Source: Methanomassiliicoccales archaeon (GTDB lineage: Archaea > Thermoplasmatota > Thermoplasmata > Methanomassiliicoccales > UBA472). Taken from it: a stretch of 64,000 nt of DNA. A model generated the notes under the pieces. That model was not told where the DNA came from and ran no database searches. It saw nothing but the letters and a program-made list of their open reading frames with translations. The DNA lies in the NCBI GenBank assembly GCA_013415865.1, contig CP058896.1, forward strand, positions 1,407,957 to 1,471,956, given 5' to 3'. Of the stretch, positions 27,138 to 34,626 are shown piece by piece (the stretch's first letter is position 1; each line of letters opens with the position of its first letter). The translations under genes and the position numbers were made by a program.

Positions 27138-27926
27138 TCAAACCCCCCTGAGCATGGCATCACCGTCCCTGATGGTAGGACGACCTCTTCTGGCAAGCTC
27201 AAGGTCGTGACGGTCTATCTCGATGACCTTCACATCCTCATCAAAGTATCTGCACTTGGCGAGGCGGTCCCCCCTTGGACCATACGCCTCGCTCCCTCCG
27301 AAGAAGACCATTCCAAGCTGTGCCCCCACCTGGTTCACGTAGATACTGTAGACGGTGTTCTCGATGGCCCTTGCCGGCACGATCCTCTCAAAGAAGTCCC
27401 TTGATGTGTACGGAGAGGCTGATATCGTGATCAGCGCCTCGGCGCCCGAAAGCGCATGCGTCCTCGCGATCTCCGAATGGAAAATGTCATAGCAGATCTC
27501 GATCCCCAACCTGAAGCCCTTATGGGTCATCATGACCGGGCCGTCCCCTGCCCCAAAGTAGAGCCCCTCCTCGAACGGACCGAAGGTGGCAGGGTACTGC
27601 TTGTCATAAACTTGAACACCCTCCTTCTCTGAGACCATGACCGCGCTGTTGCGGAGGATGTTAGGGAGGTCATCATCGAGACGGGCCATTCCAAAGAGTA
27701 TTGCACAATCATGTTCCTCGGCGAGACGTTCTATCTTTCGGACGCTCGGGCCATGCAAAGGCTCCGCCAATGAGTTGATCCTGTCCCTCACCATGTAACC
27801 GGTGAGGTACAGCTCGCAGAACACGAACAGGTCAGCATCCTGTTCACCGATCAGTTTGCCCATCTTGGCCACATTGACCTCTTTGTCCGCAAGCGCGCAC
27901 CGGAGCTGGGCAAGAGCTATCTTCAT
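27138..27926 (-). CDS. Nitrilase-superfamily carbon-nitrogen hydrolase
   Basis: The Glu-Lys-Cys triad of the nitrilase fold is visible in 'FCELYLTGY', 'VYDKQYPATFGPFEE' and 'LGIEICYDIFHSE'. The family includes amidases and glutaminase-like subunits, but the substrate cannot be read from the sequence. Length of 262 residues is normal. It lies 65 bases after a small membrane protein and AIM24 on the same strand. Confidence 0.87.
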   Translation of the reverse strand: MKIALAQLRCALADKEVNVAKMGKLIGEQDADLFVFCELYLTGYMVRDRINSLAEPLHGPSVRKIERLAEEHDCAILFGMARLDDDLPNILRNSAVMVSEKEGVQVYDKQYPATFGPFEEGLYFGAGDGPVMMTHKGFRLGIEICYDIFHSEIARTHALSGAEALITISASPYTSRDFFERIVPARAIENTVYSIYVNQVGAQLGMVFFGGSEAYGPRGDRLAKCRYFDEDVKVIEIDRHDLELARRGRPTIRDGDAMLRGV

Positions 27927-28970: not shown

Positions 28971-29144
28971 CTTTCGACCCCTAAGGCCCCTAAAGGCAAG
29001 GTCACGTATTTCAGCTTGTGGAGCCTCCTATAGGATAAGGGCATCCATACTTCTGAGACCACATCATATCGGAGCCCTCGGTCTTTTAAGGTCTTGATGT
29101 CCAAGGGTGACCTGATTTATATTTGCGATGAAGTTACTGGCACG

Positions 29145-32100
29145 ATGTCCTCCGAGCTGTTTCGCATAGAGGTCAACCAGATCGGCGAGTACGTGCAGAT
29201 GGGCTCCTGCCCACGCAGGTTCAAGCTCGACCTAAATGGAAGGGAGCTCGCGAAAAAGGTGCCCTTCTTCACCAGGGCGCTCAACCCGTTGGACCCTGTC
29301 CTACAGGAGATGGGGAGGGAAAGGGAGGAGAGATGGGAGCTGTCCCTTATCAGGGCTGGCCATACCAAGATATCATCGAAGGATGAGGATGGCGAGAGGC
29401 AAAGCATCTCTTGGGAGGAGTTTGTAGAGAGACTAGGGAAGGAAGCGAGACCTGGGGCACCCTTCTATGCAAGAGAGGTCGAGCTGTCTGGAACTATCGG
29501 CCGGTTCTCCATACACGGTCGCTGTGATTTCATCGTCCTGCATTGGAAAGACGGCAAGCCCAAGTTAAGGGTCGTCGAATGCAAGGCAAGCAGGAAGGAC
29601 AAGACATATCACCGGGTCCAACTGGCAGCCTACGTGTTATTGATCAGGGCCTATCTGGCCGACGGGACCTTCAACATTGCTGGCCACCTTCTTGAGGCAT
29701 CATCGCTGGAGGGGGTTGTGGCACGGATAGACGAGAAAGGAGATAACCAGGAGATAATGTCGCTGCCTTCCTTCGACCTGACGACAGAGATGGAAGATGT
29801 CCTGAGGCTCCTCTCAGAAGGAGGGGAGCTGGATAGGATCACTTCGACCGACATCGACGAGCTGAGCTACAGGATCGACAGAAGATGCGACCCCTGCGTC
29901 TTCAGCGTGATATGCCTTCCGGAATCGGCCAGGTGCAGAAGGCTTGAGCTCCTGGACATGGACCCATCCTCCCTCAGGGTGCTGAGGGAGAACGGCATAG
30001 GGGACATCGATGACCTTGCCGAGCTGGACGCACGTTCTGAGACCGCCCTGAGGATAAGGAGGTCACCAGGGTTCGTCGGCAACCTCACATCGCTCATATC
30101 GAAGGCCAAGGCCAGGAGGGCGACCTTACCTGGGTCGGCCAAAGATGGCTATGAGGTGGAGAAGCTACCTGGCCTTCAGATCGGGTCGCTCCCCGCCCAT
30201 GAGGGAGGGGATGGCCGTCTGGTCAGGGTATATATGTCCGTCGACTACGACTATGTCGAGGACCGCATCGGAGGTCTTTCGGCCCATGTGACGACCAGCC
30301 CTTACAGGGTCCATACTCCATATGTGATGGAGAACGGTCGGTTCCGCCCCTTCCCTGGGATTGTGGAAAGGTCTTCAGATGATGGGGGCACCTTCGCACG
30401 AGAAAAGCAGGTATCAGGGTCAGACGTCATCATGTTCAGGGACAGACCATGGACAAGGGACCGGGCAAAGGACGATGCCGGTGAGGCTGAGCTGATATCC
30501 TCTTTCTTCAACTCTCTAGTGGAGGCCATGGTCAAGGAGGCAGGAAAGGACAGCGCCCCCGTGCATTTCTACATCTGGAAGCGGGACGAGATGTCAACCC
30601 TCATCGAAGGATGCTCGAGGTGCGGAGGGGGACTTCTGGAACATCTCTCCGAGCTCATGGGTTGCAGGCAGCCCTTGGAACAGCTCATATTCACCTCATT
30701 GGACGAAGAGGTCCGCTCCAGATATGCCTTAGGATGGTCGGGGAGCGGGCTCGCTGTCGTCTCATCCCTGAGATGGTTCGGTGAAAGGTATCATTGGCAC
30801 AGGACGGTGGAGGGCAGGGAGGTGGACCTCTCTGATGTCTTCCGACAGGGCATATTCGATTTCTCATCGCCCTTGGCGCTCCGAGAGGATGGCAGCTGGG
30901 CCAGGCCAGGTGAGGAAGGGACACCATATGTGTTCGAGGTAAGGAGCAGGAATCATGACTCCCTTCCAGTACCATACTGGCATGCGGTATGGGGAACCTT
31001 GCCCTCACCTGACGGTCCGATGAAGTACACCACGAGGGAGACCATTAAAAGGTTCATGTCAGGGGGCGACCCCGCGCTCCTGAGGGAATATCTGAGGGCG
31101 AGGGTCATGGCGCTCAGATGGGTCGAGGAAAGGATATTCCCTAAGAACAAGGACATCAGGAAGCCCGCCTTGGACCTGACCTCTTTGAAGAGGTTCAGAC
31201 TGCCTGGGTCCTCACCTGCGAGGGCCGCGGTCGACTTCCTGAGGATGGACCATCATGTCAAGTTCAACGATTGGATGGCCATGATGTCCCTTCCCCCTCT
31301 CGACCGGGTCTCCCAGGGCCTGAGCGTTCCCGTGAAGGATGTCCAGACCATCGCTGATGAGAGCTGCGGTGAATATCGGTTTTATGCCAAGCTCGACCTT
31401 GAGAGATTTGGGGAGACCACGGCGAGCTTCAGGGACAAGATGACGGTCGATCTGGGTTCTTGGGTGAGGCTGGTCCCTTATGACGGGGACATCTTGGCCC
31501 AACAGGGCCTCAAAGATATGCTCTTCGGTGGCCGGACCTGCATGGTGGAGCAACTGGACCTTGAAAAAGGGACCGTCGTCCTGAAGGTCATGCTCCTGGA
31601 CGGGGACCGGTATCGTTTGCCGAGCCTGACGCCGAAGGAGGGCCTTTTCTGTCAATACGCGACATTGGACGACAGCCCTTCCGACATGGTCGCTGGGAGG
31701 GTCGAGCATAGGCTGCTGTCCGCTGAACGCTCTGCGGTGATGTCCTGGTTCGACATGACCTCCCCCATGGTGCCGGCCTTTCCCGAGCTGGGGCCAGGCG
31801 CATGTTCAAGATATGAGGCCCTGCTGAAGGACCTGGAGTTCGACGGGGTTCGGCTCGGTGATGACCAGGTGAAGGCCATCTTGGACGGGCTGTCGGCAAG
31901 GGTGCAGCTCATGCAAGGTCCCCCCGGGACAGGAAAGACAACCACGACAGCCGTCGCCACACTGCTAAGGACGGTCCGTCAGGGACCTGGGGAGATCACA
32001 TTGGTGGCCGCGAACACGCACATGGCCATCGACCGTCTCATTGATGACATCAGGAAGAGGTCCGGGCCGTTCTTGGACGGGCTCAGGCGCATCGGGGCAT

Positions 32101-33779
32101 CGCCCGTTCCAATAGGTGTCTACAACATGAAGGAGCTTGAGAAGGAAAGGTCTTATTGGCACAAGCTCAACCAGCTCAGAGGTACGGAGAGGCTGATAGT
32201 CGGAGGTACGACCAATGAGGTCCTCAAGCTGGCGCAGAAGATGGACTCGGTCGAGCCTTATAGGAGCGGCCATGGGTTCAAAGTGAGCTGCCTGGTCGTC
32301 GACGAGGCCAGCATGATGGTGATGTCCCATTTCCTGGCATTGGCCTCTCTGGTCGATGCACAGGGCACGATCATGCTCTCAGGGGACGGAAGGCAGCTCT
32401 CACCGATAACCGCGCACGATTGGGACAACGAGGACCGGCCCTCCTTCGTGCGATATCAGCCGTTCACAAGTGCGTTCGACGCCGTCGACTCCTTGATCAG
32501 ATCTCCTGGGAACTCAAAGCAGATGATATGCAGGTCAGCACTCGACCGGACCTATCGGCTGCCGAGCGAGGTCGTCGAGCTGATCTCTGGCCTATACCAG
32601 AGGGATGGGATTGAGCTTAAGGGGAGCAAAGGCACCGTCAGGCGCACGGTCGAAAAGGGCAAGGACCCCTTCTCTGTCGTATGGAAGGAGGGTGGGATAT
32701 TCTTGATCGTCCACGACGAAGGGCGTTCAAAACGGACGAACAGGTTCGAGGCGTCGCTCATAGAGGAGGTGGTGAGGGCGTCGAATGGCCTCGACCCGTC
32801 CTCCGTGGCGGTGATGACTCCTCATAGGGCACAGAGGGCGCTGCTGCAGGAGGTGCTCAGGCCATATTCGGTCGAGGTGGACATAATCGACACCGTGGAG
32901 CGGCTCCAGGGAGGAGAAAGGGCGACGGTCATAGTCTCCGGCACACAGAGCGACCCCTCATCGATCTCCAGCACCGCGGATTTCATCCTAGACCTTAACC
33001 GTTCCAACGTCATATTCTCTAGGACAAAGGAGAGGCTGGTCGTGGTCTGCTCCCAGGCGCTCCTCGACAGCGTCCCATCTGATACAGAGCAGTACATGTC
33101 CGCGTATCTCTGGAAAAGGTTAAGGGGCATATGTAAAAGGGAGCTCACGTCCTTCGAATGGGACGGACATAAGGCCAAGTTGATGGTGCCGGACCTTGAG
33201 AACGTGACGATCATAGGTGCTGATGGACAGAGTAACTTTGAACGCCCTTGCATCGTCCCAAGGAAGGAGGCCAGGTCAGATCTAAAGGTCACAAGCGCAG
33301 GGCCGAAAGGACGAAGGTCGTTGCTCGGCCCCCCTCCCAGGACAGGAATAGTCGTCGATGGCAGCAACGTCGCCCTGCACGGCACCGATGGAAAGAAGGC
33401 ATCACCAGAGCAGTTGAAGAGGTGCTATGAGGACCTCGTGCGGACCTACGGTTTCACGGACGTCTATATAATCATCGGGCCGGGGCTGAGGCATAAGATG
33501 ACGCCAGAGGAGTTCGAGGAGCTGGAGAGGCACTTCGAGGCGAAGGCAGCAGGTCTGGACCATAAGATATTGTTGCAGGCCCCGGCCGGGGCCTATGACG
33601 ACCTTTTCACCATCCGCTTCGCGATCTACGACGACCTCCTGATATTGACCAATGACAGATATCGGGACATCATCGAGAGGAGCCCTGAGTATGAGTATGA
33701 CATCCGTACGAGGTCTGTCAGGTATATGTTCCCCGGAGGCTCTTTGATAGTGGAGAAGTGGCCCGACTATGTCATGTGA
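29145..33779 (+). CDS. Cas4/Dna2-like nuclease, SF1 helicase and NYN ribonuclease fusion
   Basis: At 1544 residues this is the largest protein here. Residues 1-260 form a RecB-type PD-(D/E)XK nuclease with Asp128, Glu145, Lys147 and later 'RVQLAAY'. Cys22, Cys248, Cys251 and Cys257 fit the iron-sulfur pattern of Cas4, AddB and Dna2. A spacer region follows. The SF1 UPF1/Dna2-type helicase has Walker A at 925-932 (GPPGTGKT), DEAS at 1053-1056, 'GDGRQLSP', 'DRTYRLP' and 'NVIFSRTKERLVVV'. Residues 1400-1544 are a Zc3h12a-like NYN/PIN RNase with 'VVDGSNVAL' and 'TNDRYRD'. A TATA box (TTTATATTT) about 26 bases before ATG 29145 supports that start over the upstream ones. Confidence 0.82.
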   Translation: MSSELFRIEVNQIGEYVQMGSCPRRFKLDLNGRELAKKVPFFTRALNPLDPVLQEMGREREERWELSLIRAGHTKISSKDEDGERQSISWEEFVERLGKEARPGAPFYAREVELSGTIGRFSIHGRCDFIVLHWKDGKPKLRVVECKASRKDKTYHRVQLAAYVLLIRAYLADGTFNIAGHLLEASSLEGVVARIDEKGDNQEIMSLPSFDLTTEMEDVLRLLSEGGELDRITSTDIDELSYRIDRRCDPCVFSVICLPESARCRRLELLDMDPSSLRVLRENGIGDIDDLAELDARSETALRIRRSPGFVGNLTSLISKAKARRATLPGSAKDGYEVEKLPGLQIGSLPAHEGGDGRLVRVYMSVDYDYVEDRIGGLSAHVTTSPYRVHTPYVMENGRFRPFPGIVERSSDDGGTFAREKQVSGSDVIMFRDRPWTRDRAKDDAGEAELISSFFNSLVEAMVKEAGKDSAPVHFYIWKRDEMSTLIEGCSRCGGGLLEHLSELMGCRQPLEQLIFTSLDEEVRSRYALGWSGSGLAVVSSLRWFGERYHWHRTVEGREVDLSDVFRQGIFDFSSPLALREDGSWARPGEEGTPYVFEVRSRNHDSLPVPYWHAVWGTLPSPDGPMKYTTRETIKRFMSGGDPALLREYLRARVMALRWVEERIFPKNKDIRKPALDLTSLKRFRLPGSSPARAAVDFLRMDHHVKFNDWMAMMSLPPLDRVSQGLSVPVKDVQTIADESCGEYRFYAKLDLERFGETTASFRDKMTVDLGSWVRLVPYDGDILAQQGLKDMLFGGRTCMVEQLDLEKGTVVLKVMLLDGDRYRLPSLTPKEGLFCQYATLDDSPSDMVAGRVEHRLLSAERSAVMSWFDMTSPMVPAFPELGPGACSRYEALLKDLEFDGVRLGDDQVKAILDGLSARVQLMQGPPGTGKTTTTAVATLLRTVRQGPGEITLVAANTHMAIDRLIDDIRKRSGPFLDGLRRIGASPVPIGVYNMKELEKERSYWHKLNQLRGTERLIVGGTTNEVLKLAQKMDSVEPYRSGHGFKVSCLVVDEASMMVMSHFLALASLVDAQGTIMLSGDGRQLSPITAHDWDNEDRPSFVRYQPFTSAFDAVDSLIRSPGNSKQMICRSALDRTYRLPSEVVELISGLYQRDGIELKGSKGTVRRTVEKGKDPFSVVWKEGGIFLIVHDEGRSKRTNRFEASLIEEVVRASNGLDPSSVAVMTPHRAQRALLQEVLRPYSVEVDIIDTVERLQGGERATVIVSGTQSDPSSISSTADFILDLNRSNVIFSRTKERLVVVCSQALLDSVPSDTEQYMSAYLWKRLRGICKRELTSFEWDGHKAKLMVPDLENVTIIGADGQSNFERPCIVPRKEARSDLKVTSAGPKGRRSLLGPPPRTGIVVDGSNVALHGTDGKKASPEQLKRCYEDLVRTYGFTDVYIIIGPGLRHKMTPEEFEELERHFEAKAAGLDHKILLQAPAGAYDDLFTIRFAIYDDLLILTNDRYRDIIERSPEYEYDIRTRSVRYMFPGGSLIVEKWPDYVM

Positions 33780-33825: not shown

Positions 33826-34626
33826 ATGCCTCAAGGTCCAAAGCACGATGTCGAGATGGTGCTCGTCGAGTTCATCAGGCAGAAGGTCGAAGAGAGCGGG
33901 GCGGAGGGCGTGGTCGTCGGCCTGAGCGGCGGCGTGGACTCGGCGCTCGTGGCGAAGCTCTGCGTCATGGCCATAGGACCAGAGAAGGTGAAGAACCTCT
34001 TCCTGCCATCAACGACGACGCCCGAGCAGGACCGGAGGGATGTACGGGAGCTTTCAACGCTACTTGGGACCGAGCTGGTCGAGATCGAGATATCGCCGAT
34101 GGTCGAGGCCTTCAGGTCCGCACTTCCGGAGATGGGACGGCGCGAGCTCTTAGGGAACGTCATGGCCCGGGTCAGGATGATCGTGTTATATCACTATGCG
34201 AGAATGGAGAACAGGCTGGTGATGGGCACCGGGAACAAGTCAGAGCTGCTGATGGGGTACTTCACCAAGTTCGGAGACGGTGGCTGTGACCACCTCCCCA
34301 TAGGAGACCTCTACAAGACCGAGGTCTGGGAGCTTGCCAGGAAGCTGGGCCTACCATCATCCATCATCGAAAAGGAGCCTTCGGCGGGCCTTTGGCCAGG
34401 TCAGACCGATGAAGGGGAGATGGGAGTGAGGTATGAGCACCTTGATAGGATATTGGCCGGGATAGAGAGGGGCCTTCCGTTGGAGGAGATATCCAGGCGG
34501 ACCGGGATAGACATGACGGTCGTTGAGATGGTCTGGAAGAAGCATCTTGCCTCGGTACACAAGAGGAAGATGCCGATCATACCAAAGGTCGGTCTGCGGA
34601 CCATAGGGATCGATTGGCGGGAGTGA
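33826..34626 (+). CDS. nadE: NAD synthetase, ammonia-dependent
   Basis: NadE amidates nicotinic acid adenine dinucleotide to NAD. The ATP-pyrophosphatase P-loop 'GLSGGVDSALVAKL', 'GTGNKSELLMGYFTKFGDGG' and 'KEPSAGLWPGQTDE' are all present. The 266-residue length fits the ammonia-using form without a glutaminase domain. Its start lies 46 bases after the helicase fusion, so it may be cotranscribed. Its end overlaps the convergent PH-domain gene by 50 bases. Confidence 0.94.
   Translation: MPQGPKHDVEMVLVEFIRQKVEESGAEGVVVGLSGGVDSALVAKLCVMAIGPEKVKNLFLPSTTTPEQDRRDVRELSTLLGTELVEIEISPMVEAFRSALPEMGRRELLGNVMARVRMIVLYHYARMENRLVMGTGNKSELLMGYFTKFGDGGCDHLPIGDLYKTEVWELARKLGLPSSIIEKEPSAGLWPGQTDEGEMGVRYEHLDRILAGIERGLPLEEISRRTGIDMTVVEMVWKKHLASVHKRKMPIIPKVGLRTIGIDWRE

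Follow-up and report, generated by a model that had tools for sequence, protein, structure and literature searches.

A methanogenic archaeon encodes a Cas4/Dna2-like nuclease, a UPF1/DNA2-type helicase and a Regnase-type RNase within one predicted protein

In prokaryotic immunity, fusions of a nuclease to a helicase are common. Cas4-like PDDEXK_1 nucleases joined to an SF1 helicase of the UvrD type, with R-M or Dcm neighbours, have already been assigned to defence (PMC5704561). Type IV restriction systems with predicted action on RNA include UPF1-like helicases (PMC11090510), and in Hachiman a sensor helicase controls, or unleashes, a nuclease (PMC12278908). In animals, the UPF1 helicase unwinds stem-loops and licenses their cleavage by Regnase-1, a Zc3h12a RNase (PMC7407380). 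Here, we describe an archaeal nuclease-helicase fusion that is set apart by a third enzyme, of the Regnase type.

The window, the whole 64,000-nucleotide stretch analysed here, belongs to a single-contig genome of 1.82 Mb (G000). This genome encodes methyl-coenzyme M reductase and the host is therefore a methanogenic archaeon. The fusion gene is uninterrupted from its ATG to the stop codon at 33777–33779 and its product reads, from N- to C-terminus, PD-(D/E)XK nuclease, helix-hairpin-helix, middle region, SF1 helicase, linker and NYN RNase (Table 1). A TTG at 29094 provides an alternative upstream start that adds 17 residues; the ATG was preferred since a 69%-identical congener aligns from its methionine. 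The sequence-only reading had assigned the three enzymes to their families, and in this order, correctly, as judged by Pfam matches above curated cut-offs, but had overlooked the helix-hairpin-helix and the long region separating nuclease from helicase. The residues it singled out (C22, D128, E145, K147, C248, C251 and C257; Walker A and DEAS; VVDGSNVAL around D1405; TNDRYRD, containing D1504 and D1508) all lie in the translation where it had placed them. It had also raised the possibility of a sequencing error that joined two genes. The same three-part order is present in four further genomes, and this recurrence, together with purifying selection on the NYN domain, excludes joined genes, a frameshift or an assembly artefact.

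Table 1 Features of the fusion gene and its neighbours, with coordinates in the window.
Feature	Residues	Coordinates	Strand	Basis or remark
Carbon-nitrogen hydrolase (nitrilase family), neighbour		27138..27926	-	Pfam CN_hydrolase
Fusion gene, whole (stop included)	1,544 aa	29145..33779	+	Single open frame, ATG 29145
First cysteine of putative iron-sulphur site	C22	29208..29210	+	Family alignment
PD-(D/E)XK nuclease domain, Cas4/AddB/Dna2-like	62-257	29328..29915	+	Pfam PDDEXK_1, E=2e-9
Nuclease active-site stretch	D128 ... E145-x-K147	29526..29585	+	Alignment of family
Other cysteines of putative iron-sulphur site	C248, C251, C257	29886-29888, 29895-29897, 29913-29915	+	
Helix-hairpin-helix-type segment	262-325	29928..30119	+	HHH_5 in 5 members; AF2
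Middle region, possibly degenerate RNase H (RNase_H_2/YprB)-like; tentative	355-580	30207..30884	+	Motif order
UPF1/DNA2-type SF1 helicase core	904-1304	31854..33056	+	Pfam AAA_30/19/11/12
Walker A, GPPGTGKT	925-932	31917..31940	+	Translation and family alignment
Walker B, DEAS	1053-1056	32301..32312	+	Invariant in 25 members
Fast-evolving linker	1341-1395	33165..33329	+	33% identity, G000 vs G001
NYN (Zc3h12a/Regnase-type) RNase domain	1401-1531	33345..33737	+	Pfam RNase_Zc3h12a, E=2.6e-12
NYN catalytic-type residues	D1405, N1408, D1485, D1486, D1504, D1508	33357..33668	+	Aligned to ZC3H12C/KHNYN
NAD synthase, neighbour		33826..34626	+	46 bp downstream of fusion gene

The N-terminal nuclease was matched by PDDEXK_1 in 24 of 25 family members. 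Its D, (D/E)-x-K and Q-xxx-Y catalytic motifs are present and conserved (D128, E145-x-K147, Q159-x3-Y163); in the family alignment D128 and K147 are invariant, and E145 is kept in the close family and is Asp in distant members. Each of the four cysteines is kept in at least 96% of the aligned rows, the last three being invariant. Their layout, one N-terminal and three C-terminal of the catalytic core, is that of the Fe-S nucleases Cas4, AddB and Dna2, and the domain probably binds an Fe-S cluster. Assignment as a CRISPR Cas4 was rejected: cas1 and cas2 are absent among the immediate neighbours (nitrilase, AIM24-like and NAD synthase genes) and TIGR00372 falls far below its cut-off.

For residues 262–700, an AF2 prediction with three sequences as input had a pLDDT of 47 and was confident mainly for the helix-hairpin-helix segment, across most of which pLDDT is about 90. 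The motif order in the middle region resembles that of RNase_H_2, and this conserved region is possibly an RNase H-like domain whose active site has eroded. Membership of the TM0106 family (TIGR03491) was rejected, with a score of 16.9 bits against a cut-off of 97.45 and an hhalign comparison of the middle region to a true member that was not significant.

The helicase is recognized, above curated cut-offs, by AAA_30/19/11 at residues 904–1090 (E down to 5e-12) and by AAA_12 at 1131–1304 (E=6e-15), and its Walker A, DEAS/DEAx, GDxxQL, QGGE and SR motifs are all conserved in the family. Among helicases, the family profile was closest to UPF1 (3e-30), followed by SMUBP-2 (2e-26) and DNA2 (2e-24), and sequence matches in the PDB were to the same three proteins. 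PADLOC matches were mainly to the helicase, with a weak match to Cas4, and none extended over a whole defence protein.

The C-terminal domain scored 47.2 bits against RNase_Zc3h12a (PF11977; curated cut-off 23) and matched ZC3H12C (1.3e-7) and KHNYN among PDB sequences. The NYN assignment is made on the support of these profiles and of the conserved catalytic residues; AF2, run on this region from a single sequence only, returned a mean pLDDT of 40. No CCCH zinc finger was found in the fusion protein. The six catalytic-type residues are complete in the window protein and in G001 and G006. Between G000 and G001, identity is 84% in the NYN domain, 76% in the helicase, 69% in the nuclease, 62% in the middle region and 33% in the linker. 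The NYN dN/dS for this pair is about 0.12, approximate at the high synonymous divergence, and the domain is under strong purifying selection within the genus of the window. Conservation beyond a drifting linker is the pattern expected of a tethered, functional domain. In G003 and G016, N1408 is replaced by Asp, G016 also lacks D1485, and NYN dN/dS is 0.40, a similarly approximate ratio that indicates weaker constraint; thus, the RNase may be weakening, or may differ, in these two genomes. Judged by sequence, the nuclease and helicase are intact, and the NYN RNase that a flexible linker joins to them looks intact as well, an anatomy that could allow a single polypeptide to act on DNA as well as RNA.

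We then consider the distribution of this family. The gene is present in 21 of the 147 genomes of the order, and the NYN-bearing form in five (G000, G001, G003, G006 and G016, the last with its copy split by contig ends), all from one taxonomic family. In a tree built on the shared 1,350 residues, the five fused members form one clade (100/100) nested inside the NYN-less family, which indicates that the fusion arose once. The copy in G002, which belongs to the same genus as the window's genome, is NYN-less and falls in another branch. Among 300 evenly sampled genomes of the class, none outside the order gave a full-length match; full-length NYN-less homologues are carried by haloarchaeal plasmids, at about 40% and about 25% identity, and by bacteria. 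The flanks examined around NYN-less relatives held no stand-alone NYN gene, and a search of plasmids with the NYN and linker sequence gave no match. Within the taxonomic family, PF11977 is confined to the five fusions and a 170-residue single-domain protein (G008). No viral relative of the whole protein was found; helicase-only matches of viral type comprised one viral protein, with the family alignment, and one from a phage.

Several further sequences were recorded. Elsewhere in the order there is one PF11977 fragment, at a contig edge; the C-terminal NYN fragment at 1–1756 of L023 (G059) lies at such an edge and is overlapped by the start of the next gene, on the same strand. The G002 match (L006 1501–5490) reads through one in-frame stop close to its C-terminal end and the G045 copy (L058 6119–10532) is spread over two overlapping frames, either of which is possibly decay or sequencing error. 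In another family of the class, a 653-residue protein (L085 55–2016, minus strand) carries an NYN domain above the cut-off and, further along, another NYN match that is weaker. In L081 (1–2013, plus strand), a protein no shorter than 670 residues has a C-terminal NYN domain behind a long N-terminal part without domain assignment, and L082 and L086 contain long frames similar to it.

The occurrence of the gene is patchy, and its locus differs between genera. In G000 and G001 it is flanked by a nitrilase-family gene and NAD synthase, in the window with an AIM24-like gene and a small ORF on the nitrilase side. In 14 other genomes of the taxonomic family, counted as those where nitrilase and NAD synthase genes were found together, the two lie side by side in divergent orientation. 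In G002, G003, G006 and G016 they are adjacent and the family gene is at another site; thus, the simplest account is that the gene reached its present site in the common ancestor of G000 and G001. Housekeeping genes, not a defence island, surround it in the window, G001, G003 and G016. In the NYN-fused G006, a Schlafen-group-3 helicase gene is downstream (L042 13355–15617), and is itself followed by a 127-residue ORF that appears MazG-like by eye.

We inspected 12 loci of NYN-less relatives outside the order. At most of them, defence-type genes adjoin the homologue or lie at most five genes away, a raw tally from replicons that include plasmids, which are rich in such genes anyway. A SacI-family restriction enzyme and a Dcm methylase are near the homologue on a Haladaptatus plasmid (L060) and on a bacterial contig (L032); the R-M proteins of the two loci are dissimilar (37% and 25% identity), hence these do not represent one recent transfer. 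The L032 record, labelled Oceanobacillus, may be mislabelled or contaminated, and carries an ObgE gene that looks alphaproteobacterial. BrxD and BrxHI are immediately upstream of the homologue in L033, as is Argonaute in L064, while L136 has HsdR-N, RNase H-like, DEAD helicase and Piwi (Argonaute) genes nearby. The remaining neighbours include an Mrr nuclease (L066), a restriction endonuclease (L137), a TmtA-like HNH protein (L061), PD-(D/E)XK and DEAD helicase genes (L138), and RNase_H_2 and MZB-type DEAD helicase genes (L065). No defence-type gene was recognized near the homologue in L062 and L063.

On two of the haloarchaeal plasmids, pairs of RNase H-like and DEAD/DEAH helicase genes flank the homologue (L065 3849–7876, L136 11761–15911). 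The RNase_H_2 protein of the L065 pair also has an HhH and its helicase an MZB domain. Both pairs resemble the MrfB/MrfA (YprB/YprA) pairing, relatives of which are defence helicases (PMC12458937).

Neighbourhood and mobility together point to a role in defence. Our preferred explanation, held with moderate confidence and ranked above three alternatives, is that the fusion protein is an accessory, horizontally shuffled nuclease-helicase that acts as an anti-invader effector on invader DNA and associated RNA, most likely in innate immunity against viruses or plasmids. Because the NYN-less relatives sit among antiviral genes, it is probably an immune protein with an added RNA cutter. An anti-invader effector is further favoured by precedent, namely the Cas4-UvrD defence fusions, the UPF1-like helicases of systems with predicted RNA targets, and Hachiman. 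The sequence-only reading had suggested R-loops or invading nucleic acid as substrates. R-loops gained no specific support; the guess of invading nucleic acid is strengthened by the R-M, Argonaute, BREX and Schlafen-type neighbours and by the patchy, relocating distribution.

We propose that a stand-alone anti-invader nuclease-helicase gained a C-terminal RNase in one archaeal lineage. The helicase would load on single-stranded invader nucleic acid and translocate, probably 5'-3' by analogy with UPF1 and DNA2, and the Cas4-like nuclease would cleave the DNA strand fed to it by this motor. The NYN domain, swinging on its linker, would cut RNA unwound by the same helicase or nascent transcripts on the invader DNA, a cooperation in cis that is modelled on the unwinding by UPF1 that licenses Regnase-1. 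In its strongest and only tentative form, the proposal is of a single-protein archaeal immune effector in which one UPF1-like motor feeds both a Cas4-like DNase and a Regnase-like RNase, and invader DNA and transcripts are destroyed together.

The best surviving alternative is a genome-maintenance enzyme, Dna2-like, that would process DNA ends, flaps or R-loops and whose NYN domain would strip the RNA out of hybrids or primers. The order of nuclease and helicase and the helicase branch are indeed those of DNA2, and the gene in the window is single-copy, chromosomal and set among housekeeping genes. However, its restriction to 21 of 147 genomes, at different loci per genus, is unlike a core repair gene, and the plasmid copies adjoin restriction and Argonaute genes. 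We consider this alternative rather unlikely. A lower probability still attaches to an abortive guard, in which the nuclease-helicase would sense damaged or foreign DNA and helicase activity would free the NYN arm as a toxin that degrades cellular RNA. A linker-tethered RNase appended to a defence-associated nuclease-helicase would suit such a guard, as would the release of a nuclease by the Hachiman sensor helicase (PMC12278908), but nothing points to a partner gene for immunity or inhibition, and the NYN-less relatives suggest that the DNA nuclease alone suffices as effector. Lastly, mRNA decay by a UPF1-like helicase and Regnase-like RNase carrying a leftover nuclease is very improbable: in profile comparisons the helicase is closest to UPF1, and NYN is the best-conserved part in the window's genus, but most relatives lack NYN, and the nuclease is no leftover given that D128, K147 and the cysteines vary little or not at all among family members.

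Should its parts act together, the protein would be a testable example of a single motor that serves a DNase as well as an RNase, and of the joining in cis, outside eukaryotes, of a UPF1-like helicase to a Zc3h12a-type RNase. Its individual domains, and nuclease-helicase fusions, are already known. The sequence-only reading was unfamiliar with any such fusion ending in an NYN RNase, and this form does seem undescribed, since the open-access literature searched held no description of the order nuclease, helicase, Regnase-type RNase. The NYN-less family of about 1,350 residues, which occurs on haloarchaeal plasmids and in methanogens and lies repeatedly next to Argonaute, SacI-type R-M and BREX-type genes, is likewise under-described. 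Its plasmid members carry only generic annotations, 'Bifunctional RecB family nuclease/DEAD/DEAH box helicase' or 'AAA domain-containing protein'.

Comparison with known systems indicates what is shared and what has been added. In DNA2 (PDB 5eaw), too, a RecB/Cas4-like nuclease with conserved cysteines stands at the N-terminus, ahead of an SF1 helicase from the UPF1/DNA2 branch; the fusion protein differs in having a 640-residue middle part with the helix-hairpin-helix, a patchy, mobile distribution and the C-terminal NYN domain. The haloarchaeal-plasmid proteins WP_276249174 and WP_302083894 are homologous over residues 1 to about 1350 (22–41% identity) and lack NYN. The Cas4-UvrD fusions share the Cas4-like pfam12705 nuclease, an SF1 helicase and Dcm/R-M neighbours, but the available text describes no NYN domain (PMC5704561), and membership was rejected because the helicase here is of UPF1/DNA2 and not UvrD type. 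MkoA of Mokosh, the PLuB helicase and DpdJ match best in the SF1 helicase core, with nothing matched beyond it and their partner genes absent here; Mokosh was rejected on these grounds. CnuH of the CoCoNuTs is a UPF1-like SF1 helicase of prokaryotic defence with predicted action on RNA (PMC11090510), whereas CoCoNuTs have as their basis a McrB GTPase together with coiled-coil nucleases, which are absent here; types II and III were rejected, as the McrB-type GTPase operon is missing and the adjacent genes are the nitrilase, AIM24-like and NAD synthase genes. UPF1 and Regnase-1 (ZC3H12A) likewise pair a UPF1-like helicase with a Zc3h12a NYN RNase, but as two separate eukaryotic proteins, without a DNA nuclease, and no CCCH zinc finger was found in the archaeal fusion. 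The single-protein effector, if correct, would be a fused prokaryotic counterpart of this pair.
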